A DNA stretch of 64,000 nucleotides, taken from NCBI RefSeq assembly GCF_001931675.1, contig NZ_CP014839.1, forward strand, positions 2,790,001 through 2,854,000, written 5' to 3'. Position 1 is the first letter of the stretch; the number at the start of each line of letters is the position of its first letter. The stretch is from Pandoraea thiooxydans. GTDB taxonomy: Bacteria; Pseudomonadota; Gammaproteobacteria; Burkholderiales; Burkholderiaceae. Positions 15,679-21,668 of the stretch are shown one piece after another. The position numbers and the translations under genes are program-made. The notes under the pieces are model-generated. The model saw only the letters and a list, made by a program, of their open reading frames with translations, searched no databases and was not told the origin of the DNA.

Positions 15679-15753
15679 CATAAACGACCGTACTACCGTA
15701 CTGATCCGCACGGGTCAGCAACGGAGATGCGGCCGGATCCACAGGAGACAAAA

Positions 15754-17385
15754 ATGCTCACCAGGCAATCGACCTATGCCGAACTCGTCGCCGGCTTTTC
15801 GTGGCACATCCCGCCGCGCTTCAATATCGGCGTCGACACCTGCGACAAATGGGCCGACGGCAGCGGGCGCCTCGCGCTGATCTATGAAAGAAACGACGGC
15901 ACGCAAGCGCGCTACACCTTCGACGACATCAAGGCACGCTCCAACCAGCTCGCCAATAGCATGCGCCGGCAAGGCGTCGAGCGCGGCGACCGCATCGGCA
16001 TCTTTCTTCCGCAAACACCGGAAACGGCGCTCGCGCATATCGCCGCTTATAAGCTGGGGGCCGTGGCTGTGCCGCTGTTCGCCCTGTTCGGCATGGAGGC
16101 GCTCCAGTATCGCTTGTCCAACTGCGGCGCCACCGCGCTGGTCACGGATCGCCAGGGCCTGGAGAAGATTCGCTCGATTCGCGATACCTTGCCCCACCTG
16201 AAGACGATCTATTGCATCGACGCGACAGCTTCCGATACCGATGCCTGCGATTTCTGGCAACAGCTGCAAGCCGAAGCGGATGCGTTTGAGCCAATCGACA
16301 CGTCAGCGGACGACCCGGCCGTCATCATCTACACCTCCGGCACGACCGGCAAGCCCAAAGGCGCACTGCACGCGCATCGCGTGCTGCTGGGGCATCTGCC
16401 CGGCGTCGAGATGTCGCATGAATTTTTCCCGGAGCACGCGCGGCTGATGTGGACGCCGGCCGACTGGGCCTGGATCGGCGGCCTGCTCGATGTGCTGCTG
16501 CCCGCCTGGCATCATGGCGTGACCGTGCTGGCCCGCCGCTTCGAAAAGTTCGACGGCGAGGCGGCATTCGATCTGATGGCCCGCCACGGCGTCACGCACA
16601 CCTTTCTGCCGCCGACCGCCCTCAAGATGATGCGCGCAGTCAAGGATCCGCAACGCTGGCGCTTGTCGCTGCGTGCCGTCGCCAGTGGCGGCGAGTCGCT
16701 CGGCGAAGAGCTGATCGAGTGGGGGCAGGCCGCGCTGGGCGTCACCATTAACGAGTTCTATGGGCAGACCGAATGCAATGTGGTGCTGTCGTCGTGCTCG
16801 TCGCTGTTTCCACCCAGCATCGGCTCGATCGGCAAAGCAGCGCCCGGACACCAGGTACGGATCGTCGACGACGCCGGCGAAGTATTGCCGGTCGGGACCG
16901 AAGGCAATATCGCCGTGCGCGCCCCCGATCCGGTGATGTTTCTCGGTTACTGGGACAATCCCGACGCCACTCGTGCGAAATATGCCGGCGACTATTTGAT
17001 CACCGGCGATCTTGGCGTGGAGGATGCGGACGGTTTCATCCGGTTCATTGGGCGCAACGACGATGTCATCACCAGCGCCGGCTATCGCATCGGCCCGGGA
17101 CCGATCGAAGATTGCCTGCTCGGTCATCCGGCCGTGCGCATGGCGGCCGTGATTGGCGTTCCCGATCGCGAACGCACCGAGATCGTCAAGGCATTCGTGG
17201 TGCTGAACCCCGACTACAAGCCGAGCGATGCGCTGGTCAAGGAAATTCAAATGCACGTCAAGACGCGTCTGGCCGCGCACGAGTACCCGCGCGAGGTCAG
17301 TTTCGTCGATGCGCTGCCGATGACGACTACCGGCAAGATCATTCGCCGAGCCCTGCGCGAGGCGGCTGGCGACGCGAAGACGTAA
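15754..17385 (+). CDS. AMP-forming acyl-CoA synthetase (acetyl/medium-chain type)
   Basis: A 543-residue ANL-superfamily enzyme that activates a carboxylic acid to acyl-AMP and then acyl-CoA. The P-loop-like motif YTSGTTGKPKG is near residues 192-202. The adenylate motif GQTE lies in NEFYGQTECN, and the hinge motif GDLG/RNDDVI near 425-440. The catalytic lysine is in TTTGKIIRR near 527. CAGGAGA precedes the start at 15754. The chain-length range is not decidable from sequence. It is convergent with the radical SAM gene, 15 bases away. Confidence 0.9.
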   Translation: MLTRQSTYAELVAGFSWHIPPRFNIGVDTCDKWADGSGRLALIYERNDGTQARYTFDDIKARSNQLANSMRRQGVERGDRIGIFLPQTPETALAHIAAYKLGAVAVPLFALFGMEALQYRLSNCGATALVTDRQGLEKIRSIRDTLPHLKTIYCIDATASDTDACDFWQQLQAEADAFEPIDTSADDPAVIIYTSGTTGKPKGALHAHRVLLGHLPGVEMSHEFFPEHARLMWTPADWAWIGGLLDVLLPAWHHGVTVLARRFEKFDGEAAFDLMARHGVTHTFLPPTALKMMRAVKDPQRWRLSLRAVASGGESLGEELIEWGQAALGVTINEFYGQTECNVVLSSCSSLFPPSIGSIGKAAPGHQVRIVDDAGEVLPVGTEGNIAVRAPDPVMFLGYWDNPDATRAKYAGDYLITGDLGVEDADGFIRFIGRNDDVITSAGYRIGPGPIEDCLLGHPAVRMAAVIGVPDRERTEIVKAFVVLNPDYKPSDALVKEIQMHVKTRLAAHEYPREVSFVDALPMTTTGKIIRRALREAAGDAKT

Positions 17386-17400
17386 CGCGCGCGCCGACGC

Positions 17401-18489
17401 TCAGAACAGGTCCAGTTGCGCGCTGTGTGCATCGGGCCGGCGAAACCGCGTCGCGTCCAGCTGACGGCGTGCCATGTTCAAGCCATTGCGCCGGCACGCC
17501 AACTCGAAACGCCGGCGCACCAGTTCCGCATATTGGCCGGTGCCGCGCATGCGGCTGCCAAAATTTGCGTCGTTATGGCGACCGTCCCGGACTTGCTCGA
17601 TGAGGCTCATTACATGCGCCGCGCGTGAGGGGAAGTGAGCGTGCAGCCACTTGACGAACAGGTCATGAACCTCGAGCAGCAAGCGCAACATCACGTAACC
17701 GGCGCCCTCCGCCCCGGCCTGGGCCGCGACCTCGAGCACGCGCTCGATGTCATAGTCGTTGAGCGCCGGAATGATCGGCGCGACGATCACGCCGGCCGGC
17801 ACGCCCGCCTGCGCGAGCCGGCGAATCGCCTCGATGCGGCGCCCCGGCGTATTGGCGCGAGGCTCCAGTAGCCGCGCGAGATCGGCGTCCAGCGTGCCCA
17901 CCGACAGGAACACCCGTACCAAACCCTTGCCCGCCATGCGCGAGAGAATATCGAGGTCGCGCACGACCAGCGCCGACTTGGTGGTGATGCCGACGGGGTG
18001 ATTGAAGTCTTCCAGCACCTCGAGTATCGAGCGCGTAATGGCAAGCCCGCGCTCGATCGGCTGGTAGGGATCGGTATTGGCGCCGAGCGCGAGTATCGCG
18101 GGCCGATAGTTCGGCTTGCTCAACTCCACGCGCAACAGTTCCGCGGCGTTGCGCTTGGCGTATAACTCCGTCTCGAAATCGAGCCCCGGCGAGAGCCCGA
18201 GATAAGCATGCGTCGGCCGAGCGAAACAATAGATGCAGCCATGTTCGCAGCCACGATATGGGTTGATCGACCGGTCGAACGGCACGTCCGGCGAGTTGTT
18301 GCGGGAAATGATGCGGCGGGCGATTTCGTCGGTGACATGTGTCTTGAACTGCACCACATGCTCGTGAGCCGCATTGGCGGATTCGATCGTCTCGTCGGGC
18401 TCTCGTGACCAGGCGCTAAAACGTTCAACCTGGTTGGACGTGGCGCCTCGCCCTTTGAGCGCGGCAGTTGGCTGATCGGAGGAAGGCAT
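17401..18489 (-). CDS. PA0069-family SplB-like radical SAM protein, SOS-controlled, with C-terminal clamp-binding motif
   Basis: A 362-residue radical SAM protein of the DNA-repair-photolyase (SplB, COG1533) group. The [4Fe-4S]/SAM cysteines are Cys81, Cys85 and Cys88 in CEHGCIYC, followed by TDPYQPIE and TKSALVVRD motifs of the same family. The last five residues are QLDLF (358-362), which matches the consensus QL(S/D)LF used to bind the DNA polymerase sliding clamp. A near-perfect LexA box sits 16 bases upstream of the ATG, and AGGGG serves as ribosome site. Inference: a damage-inducible DNA repair or tolerance enzyme recruited to the clamp. The substrate lesion is unknown. From memory, PA0069 is reported in the Pseudomonas aeruginosa LexA regulon, which should be checked. 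Confidence 0.88.
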   Translation of the reverse strand: MPSSDQPTAALKGRGATSNQVERFSAWSREPDETIESANAAHEHVVQFKTHVTDEIARRIISRNNSPDVPFDRSINPYRGCEHGCIYCFARPTHAYLGLSPGLDFETELYAKRNAAELLRVELSKPNYRPAILALGANTDPYQPIERGLAITRSILEVLEDFNHPVGITTKSALVVRDLDILSRMAGKGLVRVFLSVGTLDADLARLLEPRANTPGRRIEAIRRLAQAGVPAGVIVAPIIPALNDYDIERVLEVAAQAGAEGAGYVMLRLLLEVHDLFVKWLHAHFPSRAAHVMSLIEQVRDGRHNDANFGSRMRGTGQYAELVRRRFELACRRNGLNMARRQLDATRFRRPDAHSAQLDLF

Positions 18490-18503
18490 GACGACCCCTT
18501 GAG

Positions 18504-18523
18504 TACTGTATATTTATACAGTA
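18504..18523. promoter_or_regulatory. LexA (SOS) box upstream of the radical SAM gene
   Basis: CTGTATATTTATACAG at 18506-18521 matches the E. coli-type LexA consensus CTGT-N8-ACAG, with the AT-rich alternating centre. The flanking TA on each side gives two perfect 9-base arms around a central TT. It lies 14-34 bases upstream of the radical SAM start and overlaps the proposed -10 box. Confidence 0.88.
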
Positions 18524-18548
18524 TATCGCTTCCTCCATCGCTTGGCAG
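18520..18548 (-). promoter_or_regulatory. Probable promoter of the radical SAM gene, occluded by LexA
   Basis: On the minus strand -35 CTGCCA (18543-18548) and -10 TATACT (18520-18525) are 17 bases apart. The -10 overlaps the edge of the LexA box, so bound LexA would block initiation. Confidence 0.6.
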
Positions 18549-18577
18549 GGCGTCGGGAATTTCGCGCCCTGTTTGCC

Positions 18578-19066
18578 TTACTCTTGCGCGTCGATCACGA
18601 GCGTCTCTTTGATTTCTTCCATCACGACGTAACTTTTGGACTGCACCGCGCCGGGCAGCTGCAGCAGGATGTCGCCCAGCAGCTTGCGGTATTCCGACAT
18701 CTCCCGGATGCGCGCCTTGATCAGGTAGTCGAAATCGCCCGACACGAGATGACACTCGAGCACCTCGGAAATGCGCAGCACCTCGCGGCGAAACTGCTCG
18801 AACATATTGCCCGATTTGTGATCCAGCGTGATTTCGACAAACACCAGCAACGTGGCACCCAGCGCGACCGGATTGACCCGTGCGTAATAGCCGGTGATCA
18901 CACCGTCGCGCTCCATGCGCTTGACTCGCTCGATACACGGCGTGATCGACAGGCCGACCTGCTCGGCGAGGTCTTTCATCGAGATGCGCCCGTCGCGCTG
19001 CAGGATCGTCAGGATGCGTCGATCCAGTTTGTCGAGCGTGCGCACGGACTGCTGCTGGATTCTCAT
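18578..19066 (-). CDS. Lrp/AsnC family regulator, probable alanine-responsive regulator of dadA
   Basis: A 162-residue feast/famine regulator. The N-terminal winged HTH (LDRRILTILQRDGRISMKDL, then LSITPCIERVKR) is followed by a RAM ligand-binding domain containing the G-D-F-D-Y segment (HLVSGDFDYLIKAR). It is divergent from dadA across a 107-base AT-rich spacer, a typical Lrp-binding arrangement. By context it probably activates dadA (and possibly ald) in response to alanine, like DadR. The name is inferred from neighbourhood only. Confidence 0.88.
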   Translation of the reverse strand: MRIQQQSVRTLDKLDRRILTILQRDGRISMKDLAEQVGLSITPCIERVKRMERDGVITGYYARVNPVALGATLLVFVEITLDHKSGNMFEQFRREVLRISEVLECHLVSGDFDYLIKARIREMSEYRKLLGDILLQLPGAVQSKSYVVMEEIKETLVIDAQE

Positions 19067-19173
19067 TATTTTTTCCCGAAAACAGAAAATCTACATGAAC
19101 AATTACTACTTAATACTCAATAGTATAGCGATTATTAATACCAATTTTTAAATTTACAGCATCGGAGCATACT
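19067..19173. promoter_or_regulatory. AT-rich divergent control region between lrp-type gene and dadA
   Basis: A 107-base spacer that is strikingly AT-rich compared with the surroundings (for example 19131-19158). It includes short dyads such as TACT-N4-AGTA. It probably contains both promoters and Lrp-type sites. No single promoter can be fixed with confidence. Confidence 0.5.
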
Positions 19174-20460
19174 ATGCGGGTGGTCATTCTCGGTAGCGGC
19201 GTTATTGGCACCGCCAGCGCTTTCTATCTCGCACAGGCTGGCCATCAGGTCACTGTCCTCGACCGCCAGCCCGGCCCCGCCCTGGAGACCAGTTTCGGCA
19301 ATGCCGGACAGATTTCTCCGGGTTATGCGTCACCCTGGGCCGCCCCGGGCATCCCGCTCAAAGCAGTCAAATGGCTGTTTCAGGCCCACGCGCCGTTGGC
19401 CATTCGCGCCGACGGATCGCTGTTCCAATTGCGCTGGCTCTACCATATGCTGCGCAACTGCACTGCCAGCCGCTATGCGGTCAACAAGGAACGCATGGTG
19501 CGCCTGGCCGAGTACAGCCGTGACTGCTTCCGCGCCCTGCGCGCCGAAACCGGCATCGAATACGAGGGGCGCCAGCAAGGTACGTTGCAGTTGTTCCGTA
19601 CCCAGGCGCAGCTTGACAACGCGGCGCGCGACATCGCCGTGCTCGAGCAGGCCGGCGTGCCCTTCGAACTGCTCTCGCCCGCCGAACTGGCACGGGCCGA
19701 GCCGGCGCTGGCTGCCGTCAGCCACAAGCTGACGGGTGGCCTGCGCCTGCCCAATGACGAAACCGGCGACTGCCAATTGTTCACCACGCGCCTGGCCGCG
19801 ATGGCCGAGGATCTGGGCGTGCAATTTCGCTATGACACACCGATCGATGCACTGCTGACCAACGGCGACCAGATCAGCGGCGTCGTCTCGGGCCAGCAAG
19901 TCATCAAGGCCGACGCCTATGTGGTTGCGCTCGGCTCCTATTCGACGCCATTCCTGCGCGGCATCGTCGATATCCCCGTCTATCCTCTCAAGGGATATTC
20001 GATCACCGTACCCATCGCCGACGAACGCGCCGCTCCGGTGTCGACCGTGCTGGATGAAACCTACAAGATCGCGATCACACGTTTTGACGATCGCATCCGG
20101 GTGGGCGGCATGGCCGAGGTCGTCGGCTATGACAAACGCCTCAAGCCACAACGGCGCGCCACGCTCGAGATGGTCGTCAATGATCTGTATCCCGGCGCAG
20201 GCAACACCGCCGAGGCCAGTTTCTGGACGGGTTTGCGGCCGATGACGCCAGACGGCACGCCGATCGTCGGCGCCACGCCGGTAAAGAATCTGTTCCTGAA
20301 CACCGGGCATGGCACGCTCGGCTGGACCATGTCGTGCGGCTCGGGCCAGCTCCTGGCCGATCTGATCTCGGGCCGGCGTCCGGCGATCGCTGCGGACGAC
20401 CTGTCGGTCGCCCGTTACCTGAGTGAGCCTGCCGACACACGGCAACCTGCTTATGCCTGA
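19174..20460 (+). CDS. dadA: D-amino acid dehydrogenase
   Basis: A 428-residue FAD enzyme (DAO family) that oxidises D-alanine and other D-amino acids to 2-oxo acids and passes electrons to the respiratory chain. The N-terminal dinucleotide motif [14 protein letters not shown] is at residues 3-16, and the DadA-typical [20 protein letters not shown] at 40-60. The C-terminal [10 protein letters not shown] is the FAD-closing segment. CGGAG precedes the start. No dadX racemase follows; an alanine dehydrogenase gene takes that place. Confidence 0.95.
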
Positions 20461-20466
20461 TACGCG

Positions 20467-20492
20467 AACGGCGCTCTCGAGCGCCGTTTTTT
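20467..20492 (+). terminator. Rho-independent terminator after dadA
   Basis: A GC-rich hairpin (ACGGCGC paired with GCGCCGT, loop TCTCGA) followed by six T. It lies between dadA and ald, so ald is probably transcribed mainly from its own promoter or by read-through. Confidence 0.82.
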
Positions 20493-20534
20493 ATTCAACC
20501 GCTTCACCCAAGCACGACACGATAGGAGACAGCC

Positions 20535-21668
20535 ATGAAAATCGGCGTACCCAAGGAGATCAAGAACAATGAGTTCCGCGTCGGCATGACCCCAGGCGCG
20601 GTGCGCGAAGTAGTCGCGCATGGTCACGAAGTCTGGATCGAGAGCCATGCCGGCGACGGTATCGGCATGGACGATCAGGCTTACGTCGCCGCTGGTGCCC
20701 ACATTGCTCCAAGCGCGGCGGACGTTTTCGAGCGCGCGGAATTGATCGTCAAAGTCAAGGAACCACAAGCCGTCGAACGCGCACGGCTGAGGCCGGAGCA
20801 AACGCTCTTTACCTACTTGCACCTGGCGCCCGACCCCGAGCAAACGGCCGACCTGGTCAAGAGCGGGGCAACGTGCATCGCTTATGAGACCGTGACCTCT
20901 TCCCAAGGGGGGCTGCCGCTGCTGGCGCCGATGTCCGAGGTCGCGGGTCGCATGGCTGTTCAGGCGGGCGCCACCGCGTTGGAAAAATCGCATGGCGGCC
21001 TGGGGTTGCTGCTCTCCGGCGTGCCGGGCGTGGAACCCGGCAAAATCGTGATTCTCGGCGGCGGCGTGGTCGGCTCGAATGCCGCCACCATCGCCTGCGG
21101 CATGGGAGCTGAAGTGGTGGTGATCGACCGCTCGGTGGACGTCCTGCGGCGGCTATCCGCGCAGTTCGGCGGGCGCATCAAGACGGTTTATTCGACCCGC
21201 CACGCGATCGAACAGCATCTGCGTGACGCCGATCTGGTGATCGGCGGTGTGCTCATTCCGGGGGCCGCGGCGCCAAAGCTGATTACGCGCGACATGCTGG
21301 GCCTGATGCAGCGCGGCGCAGTGATTGTCGACGTGGCAATCGATCAGGGCGGCTGCTGCGAAACCTCGCGCGCGACCACGCACGCCGATCCGGTGTATGT
21401 CGTCGACGACATTGTGCATTATTGCGTCGCCAATATGCCCGGCGGGGTACCCCGCACATCAACGAAGGCGCTCAACAACGTGACATTGCCGTTTATTCTT
21501 CAGCTCGCTGGGCAAGGCGTGCGCGGCGCTCTCGAAGCCAACCCGCATCTGCTCAACGGCCTGAACGTCGCCAATGGCGCAGTGACCAACGCGGAAGTCG
21601 CGCAGGCGTTGAACTATCAGTACCGAGCACCCTTGAGCGCCATCGCCCATTTACCGCGGCCGGCCTGA
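20535..21668 (+). CDS. ald: Alanine dehydrogenase
   Basis: A 377-residue NAD-dependent enzyme that interconverts L-alanine and pyruvate plus ammonia. The N-terminal family motif MKIGVPKEIKNNEFRVGMTP is followed by catalytic Lys and His in the KVKEPQ and FTYLHLA regions. The NAD-binding motif ILGGGVVGSNAA is near residues 172-183. Length is slightly above the usual 370. With dadA it covers both alanine enantiomers. Confidence 0.95.
   Translation: MKIGVPKEIKNNEFRVGMTPGAVREVVAHGHEVWIESHAGDGIGMDDQAYVAAGAHIAPSAADVFERAELIVKVKEPQAVERARLRPEQTLFTYLHLAPDPEQTADLVKSGATCIAYETVTSSQGGLPLLAPMSEVAGRMAVQAGATALEKSHGGLGLLLSGVPGVEPGKIVILGGGVVGSNAATIACGMGAEVVVIDRSVDVLRRLSAQFGGRIKTVYSTRHAIEQHLRDADLVIGGVLIPGAAAPKLITRDMLGLMQRGAVIVDVAIDQGGCCETSRATTHADPVYVVDDIVHYCVANMPGGVPRTSTKALNNVTLPFILQLAGQGVRGALEANPHLLNGLNVANGAVTNAEVAQALNYQYRAPLSAIAHLPRPA

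Follow-up and report, generated by a model that had tools for sequence, protein, structure and literature searches.

A Pandoraea thiooxydans radical SAM gene with a LexA-type box encodes a conserved C-terminal peptide of the sliding-clamp-binding type

The radical SAM gene and its LexA box

The window analyzed here is a stretch of 64,000 nucleotides of Pandoraea thiooxydans (contig NZ_CP014839.1, positions 2,790,001 to 2,854,000). On its reverse strand lies a gene for a radical S-adenosylmethionine (SAM) protein of the PA0069 family, which is preceded by a LexA-type box and whose product ends in a pentapeptide of the type that binds the beta sliding clamp. The coding sequence (17401–18489, including the stop codon) starts with ATG and encodes 362 amino acids with the C-terminus ...SAQLDLF. 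In an NCBIfam scan, the protein matches NF033668, "PA0069 family radical SAM protein", with 499.3 bits against a cut-off of 360 (5e-150), and the alignment is full length, pairing residues 12–362 with positions 1–348 of the 348 in the model. PF04055 also matches. The [4Fe-4S] cluster motif CX3CX2C (C81-X3-C85-X2-C88) is encoded at 18226–18249 on the reverse strand, and C332 is the only other cysteine. Family and motif are thus as the first-pass annotation, made from the letters of the window, had named them. AAGGGG at 18495–18500 (reverse strand) is a probable ribosome-binding site. We know of no reaction for the PA0069 family.

The palindromic LexA box, CTGTATAAATATACAG on the gene strand (18506–18521), lies within the extended palindrome TACTGTATAAATATACAGTA (18504–18523) and is 16 bases from the ATG. 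A sigma-70-like promoter, CTGCCA-17-TATACT (18520–18548, reverse strand), is proposed from a consensus scan only and agrees with the consensus at nine of 12 positions. Its −35-like hexamer occupies 18548–18543, and its −10-like hexamer, TATACT (18525–18520), overlaps the box by two bases. The short pattern CTGTN8ACAG is weak alone because controls yield it too: it occurs once in the window and at least once in 35 of 100 shuffles, and the 4.46 Mb genome has 18 sites, while the reversed pattern occurs 20 times. The extended pattern TACTGTATN4ATACAGTA, with up to three mismatches, has seven sites in the genome against four for the reversed control. The box of the radical SAM gene is the sole site with no mismatch. 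The description of a LexA box overlapping a −10-like hexamer holds. Five of the six other sites precede imuA (one mismatch), lexA (two sites, with two and three), recA (two), and uvrA (three). lexA, recA, and imuA score above the cut-offs of their models; the uvrA fragment matches UvrA models below theirs. The sixth site (L220, at 4095910–4095929 of the genome, two mismatches) follows a YbdK-type ligase gene, and no recognizable SOS gene was found beside it.

LexA-type boxes also precede homologous genes. We collected 200 homologue loci: 30 of the 31 matches of a first survey, the 30 best matches from 397 Pseudomonadota genomes with 60 others spread over families and picked among the matches listed for part of the 211 genomes that had them, and the best 80 of 596 further matches. 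Since this selection favors high scores, 30 lower-scoring homologues were added, from which duplicates were not removed. Two patterns were sought within 250 bases upstream: CTGTN8ACAG, which we take to be the beta/gamma-type LexA box, and GTTCN7GTTC, presumably the alpha type. Exact copies were found at 42 and 111 loci, respectively, with both together at none, giving a box of either kind upstream of 153 of the 200. In the 197 upstream segments of sufficient length, there were 150 matches, against six in 598 control segments within and after the gene. The lower-scoring set had 17 and six exact boxes, respectively (23 of 30). LexA recognition motifs are known to diverge markedly between alpha- and beta-proteobacteria (PMC3323433; papers given by PMC number are cited for individual passages). 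Since two distinct recognition sequences precede the same gene, a single inherited site does not explain the conservation. These computations support the predicted control of the window gene by LexA, within the SOS response.

A stand-alone gene among amino-acid-type and AMP-binding neighbors would fit an ordinary radical SAM enzyme that has nothing to do with DNA and a LexA-like site that arose by chance. Such an origin would leave unexplained the boxes of the homologues, the best box of the genome, and the conserved tail described below; furthermore, a Streptomyces gene listed only as radical SAM has both a LexA chromatin immunoprecipitation signal and a response to mitomycin C (PMC9380542). 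We regard this explanation as scarcely credible.

Some of the 47 homologue loci without an exact box have other upstream elements. A Xanthomonadales LexA-type pattern matched L087 alone among them. A TGTCGC-N4-GCTGAGAC-like element lies just upstream in nine (L088, L089, L091, L093, L094, L156, L172, L181, and L212), all with PQG-type tails, and its [CG]TGAGAC core occurs in two of the 153 box-bearing loci. With up to two mismatches, the element had 57, 45, and 44 matches in three genomes, where its reversed form had 46, 35, and 36. In two of these genomes, the exact copy is limited to the radical SAM gene; in the third, the copy at this gene has one mismatch, as do four other sites. The element may be the site of an alternative regulator, and we make no claim of a second regulon.

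The C-terminal pentapeptide

The last five residues, QLDLF (residues 358–362, encoded at 17404–17418 on the reverse strand), were read by the first-pass annotation as a clamp-binding peptide. They are close to the published clamp consensus QL[S/D]LF with its conserved glutamine (PMC3716654). The peptide sits on a predicted flexible tail (residues 351–362, 17404–17439, reverse strand), where the mean predicted local distance difference test (pLDDT) values of the AlphaFold2 model fall to 68 (residues 351–360) and 53 (361–362).

Removal of seven duplicates, judged by the last 120 residues, left 193 distinct proteins among the 200 loci; the box count above was made on all 200. Of the 193, 188 have the expression Q-x-x-[LMF]-[FLIW] among their last 30 residues. 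It stands at the very end in 164, and the other 24 motifs are followed by 1–10 more residues. As controls, 3860 internal stretches of 30 residues gave eight matches to the same expression, and 9650 shuffled tails gave 577. Among 715 neighboring open reading frames, which were called mechanically and include shadow frames, it was found at the end of none and in the last 30 residues of 10. Among the 30 lower-scoring homologues, 29 had it in the last 30 residues and 19 at the very end. The annotation had set conservation in homologues beforehand as a test on which it could fail; both the pentapeptide and the box came through it. The commonest residues of the homologue pentapeptides are Q, L/M, S, L, and F/L, again near the published clamp consensus.

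Position-specific constraint was examined in an alignment of 114 sequences, consisting of the window protein and 113 of 119 diverse candidates; six unusually long candidates (L114, L134, L160, L161, L173, and L214) were left out. Q358 and L361 are invariant in all 114, as are C81, C85, and C88, and residues 353–357 are variable. The proteins of other Pandoraea species often have a long stretch of variable sequence before a conserved end, QMPLF or similar. Six of the 193 and 30 proteins lack the motif (L114, L124, L125, L127, L165, and L247), and five of these have extra-residue or variant ends: QMALDL, QMRLAF, QLTLPG, QLNLEL, and QMGLDF. Such features are typical of a flexible tail that carries a short linear motif under selection, and we infer that this motif would bind the clamp, DnaN.

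A conserved C-terminus could instead be a degradation signal, or another C-terminal signal, that limits the lifetime of the enzyme after SOS induction. SOS proteins are often unstable, and the end position of 164 of the 188 motifs agrees with such a role. However, a C-end degron is not expected where 24 of the motifs carry trailing residues. The internal Gln and Leu are also more constrained than the last residue in the alignment, and the close match to the clamp consensus points elsewhere. This makes a degradation signal very unlikely.

Predicted fold and genomic context

Sequence searches gave no credible solved relative: phmmer returned nothing credible, and a profile search reached only SkfB and NifB, both weakly. 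The relation to spore photoproduct lyase (SPL), claimed from the start for this protein, therefore needed a predicted fold. The AlphaFold2 model has a mean pLDDT of 91.9, with all blocks of residues 51–350 at 91 or above and the first 50 residues low (48–78). SPL chains (PDB 4FHC, 4FHE, 4FHF, 4FHG, 4K9R, and 4RH0; 14–16% identity to the window protein) rank 1–6 in both structure comparisons of the model, about four Z units ahead of the other matches. Lower-scoring radical SAM matches include enzymes that act on peptides or tRNA, by their entry titles. The model thus supports an SPL-type radical SAM fold, and the placement in the SPL-like group stands at the level of predicted structure.

The nearest solved fold raises the question of whether the protein is a true SPL that cleaves 5-thyminyl-5,6-dihydrothymine arising in vegetative cells when these are dry or exposed to ultraviolet light. 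In SPL, a tyrosine (Y97 in B. subtilis) precedes the third cysteine of the CX3CX2C motif; the equivalent Y87 is, like the motif, invariant in all 114 aligned sequences. A photoreactivation role has been proposed for soil proteobacteria (PMC3323433), which comes close to this idea. However, the cysteine that donates hydrogen in SPL, C141, has no conserved counterpart, as judged from the sequence alignment: the three cluster cysteines alone are conserved, and C332 is the only other one here. The radical-relay tyrosine of SPL, Y99, directly after the third cysteine, corresponds to F89, in a column where 73 of the 114 sequences have F and 41 have Y. No SPL model matched in the NCBIfam scan at 1e-3. 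Furthermore, the literature describes spore photoproduct as the main lesion of endospores and other dimers as those formed in vegetative cells. A true SPL is therefore improbable, and since no cysteine is conserved at the C141 position, the final hydrogen donor is unlikely to be SPL's cysteine. In a further column, that of residue 130, 39 of the 114 sequences have Cys and 61 have Pro, the window protein among the latter; this column could mark sub-groups that differ in radical quenching.

Among the 397 sampled Pseudomonadota genomes, 211 have PA0069-family genes, 205 of them above the model cut-off. The cut-off set divides into 118 genomes with both the radical SAM gene and ImuB and 87 with the radical SAM gene only; 12 have ImuB only, and 180 have neither. 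The ImuB query was the open reading frame after imuA, which Pfam calls IMS and which no NCBIfam model named. A reduced genome of the same genus (G003, 1.2 Mb) has no match to the PA0069 family or to ImuB. Downstream context was examined at the 138 loci that extend 900 bases or more past the gene. An RNase HII signature lies on the same strand within 3.2 kb at 66 of them, and within 600 bases at 49. It is present at 62 of the 81 testable loci with a GTTCN7GTTC box. Nineteen of the 138 loci have a CcrM-like signature, accompanied at 18 by RNase HII. Scores above the model cut-off confirm two RNase HII genes; the one CcrM-like gene examined scores above the Pfam DNA methylase cut-off and below that of the CcrM model. 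These 18 loci have the same-strand order radical SAM, rnhB, and CcrM-like methylase (L046, L148, and L188 are examples with rnhB), possibly a damage-linked gene group. The links to RNase HII, the CcrM-like methylase, and ImuB favor a role on DNA.

The same links could fit an enzyme that is tethered to the clamp and acts on something other than a base, namely embedded ribonucleotides, RNA primers, or a protein on the clamp, for instance a polymerase. The downstream RNase HII genes, the co-occurrence with ImuB, and the peptide- and tRNA-acting enzymes among the lower fold matches agree with such a substrate. Against it, the top fold match is a DNA-lesion enzyme, the window has no such RNase HII linkage, and 62 of the 66 linked loci have a GTTCN7GTTC box. 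We consider a non-base substrate unlikely.

Relatives beyond the PA0069 family form a small sample. Four actinobacterial relatives, all from plasmid records (Arthrobacter, Tsukamurella, Streptomyces, and Nonomuraea), end in QEPLF, QESLF, QLTLL, and QLRLL. CGAACN4GTTCG, presumably the actinobacterial LexA consensus, occurs with one mismatch within 400 bases upstream of three of the four, a count made without a shuffled control; Tsukamurella has none. TCGAAC-type sites are found in a table of Streptomyces LexA targets (PMC9380542). Two of the four are placed in the Rv2578c family, the Tsukamurella protein by annotation and the Streptomyces protein by score (512 bits against the NF038135 cut-off of 430). 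The window protein scores 219.9 bits with this model, below the cut-off. The model match ends at residue 288 of the 325 in the Streptomyces protein, whose tail thus lies outside NF038135. A Gemmatirosa relative ends in QLSLGI and an Aeromonas relative in QLRLF, and no clamp-type end was seen in the one Paenibacillus and one haloarchaeal radical SAM relative examined.

In the window itself, an AMP-binding enzyme gene (15727–17385) adjoins the radical SAM gene tail to tail. The upstream neighbor encodes an Lrp-like regulator (18578–19066, reverse strand; 215 bits with the best model, which has a cut-off of 233). It is followed up to 21668 by a flavin adenine dinucleotide-dependent oxidoreductase gene and an alanine dehydrogenase/PNT-type gene, both on the forward strand. 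This cluster (18578–21668) looks like an amino-acid catabolic one. No Rfam family was found in 16000–21000 at gathering thresholds. A phage origin of the gene is unsupported: the nine partial phage relatives are all below 60% identity, and none covers 80% of the query. These records (H1–H9), gut phage contigs and Acidianus two-tailed viruses, have 32–36% identity over 45–57% of the protein.

Proposed role and comparison with known systems

We consider it probable that the gene encodes an SOS-induced radical SAM enzyme with an SPL fold that is delivered by the clamp and processes DNA lesions. LexA control, the conserved tail, and the SPL fold have computational support; clamp binding, a DNA substrate, and lesion processing are inferred. 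In the proposed mechanism, LexA would repress the promoter of the radical SAM gene. Damage would activate RecA, LexA would be cleaved, and the enzyme would be made alongside RecA, UvrA, and an ImuA-type mutasome. The flexible tail would then insert Q-x-x-L-F into the hydrophobic cleft of the beta sliding clamp and thereby tether the barrel of the enzyme to primer-template or gapped DNA. There, the 5'-deoxyadenosyl radical would attack a lesion, of which a base adduct and a base-base crosslink are the most likely kinds, leading to its reversal or processing. More tentatively, a widespread class of clamp-tethered radical SAM enzymes may directly reverse a lesion of growing cells, such as a base-base crosslink, with a hydrogen donor other than the cysteine of SPL.

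Several points weigh against this proposal. The motif expression, with its broad second position, was devised after the tails had been seen, although the identical expression was applied to the controls. L114 is the sole protein of the 223 homologues without a recognizable clamp peptide, possibly through a frameshift or a real loss; since it was excluded from the alignment, it falls outside the set in which Q358 and L361 are invariant. Neither type of box is present in exact form at 47 of the 200 homologues, and one mismatch is seen in the box of L018, whose 91% identity makes it the nearest relative. The homologues are related, so that the counts are not independent, and 24 of the 40 other genomes of the first survey belong to the same genus. 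The co-occurrence with ImuB ignores shared ancestry and comes from an insensitive single-query search, and it is not relied on. Finally, the gene has no repair genes as neighbors in the window.

The regulatory side of the proposal is already known in outline. LexA control of "splB", which we take to be the same type of gene, was predicted in 2012 in alpha- and beta-proteobacteria (PMC3323433), and SplB has been described in print as SOS-regulated in several species. A radical SAM protein belongs to a core Gram-positive regulon (PMC7739468), and SplB-like enzymes have been linked to ImuB-C domains (PMC3765255). In passages of a P. aeruginosa microarray list, PA0069 is named near PA0669 and PA0670, with nothing on its function. 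PA0069 together with LexA was not found in the open-licence literature naming PA0069, nor was a clamp motif in a radical SAM protein of the PA0069, SplB, or SPL type reported among the matches listed there. Because LexA control is already in print, only the clamp tail looks new, as far as the literature search reached.

If the more tentative reading of direct reversal is true, many Pseudomonadota and Actinomycetota would have a light-independent direct-reversal pathway at sites of replication. The near-universal clamp-type tail would indicate the site of action of the enzyme and explain its association with the damage response. It makes a vague annotation open to direct experiment, and radical chemistry would be added to the activities delivered by the clamp.

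Among known systems, the protein is a full-length member of the PA0069 family above the cut-off, and the name and description of that model are silent on function, SOS control, and a clamp tail. Set against SPL, the LexA-type boxes and the flexible clamp-type tail of the window protein and its homologues are apparent differences. The actinobacterial Rv2578c family has a related core, and the four examined actinobacterial relatives end in QxxL[FL]. Archaeal SplB-like genes adjoin nreB, and repair of intra- or interstrand crosslinks has been suggested (PMC4929162). There, too, an SplB-like enzyme is genetically linked to a sliding-clamp-associated repair family; in contrast to the window protein, the PCNA motif is on the neighboring Nre protein (less clear-cut in NreB) and not on the SplB-like enzyme. 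A parallel for the tail is found in the polymerases that are clients of the beta clamp. UmuC (QLNLF) and Pol II (QLGLF) have the same class of short peptide as the window protein, which likewise has a conserved peptide of the QL[S/D]LF type in a flexible region. The difference is in the cargo, a polymerase in the known clients and a radical SAM enzyme in the window protein.
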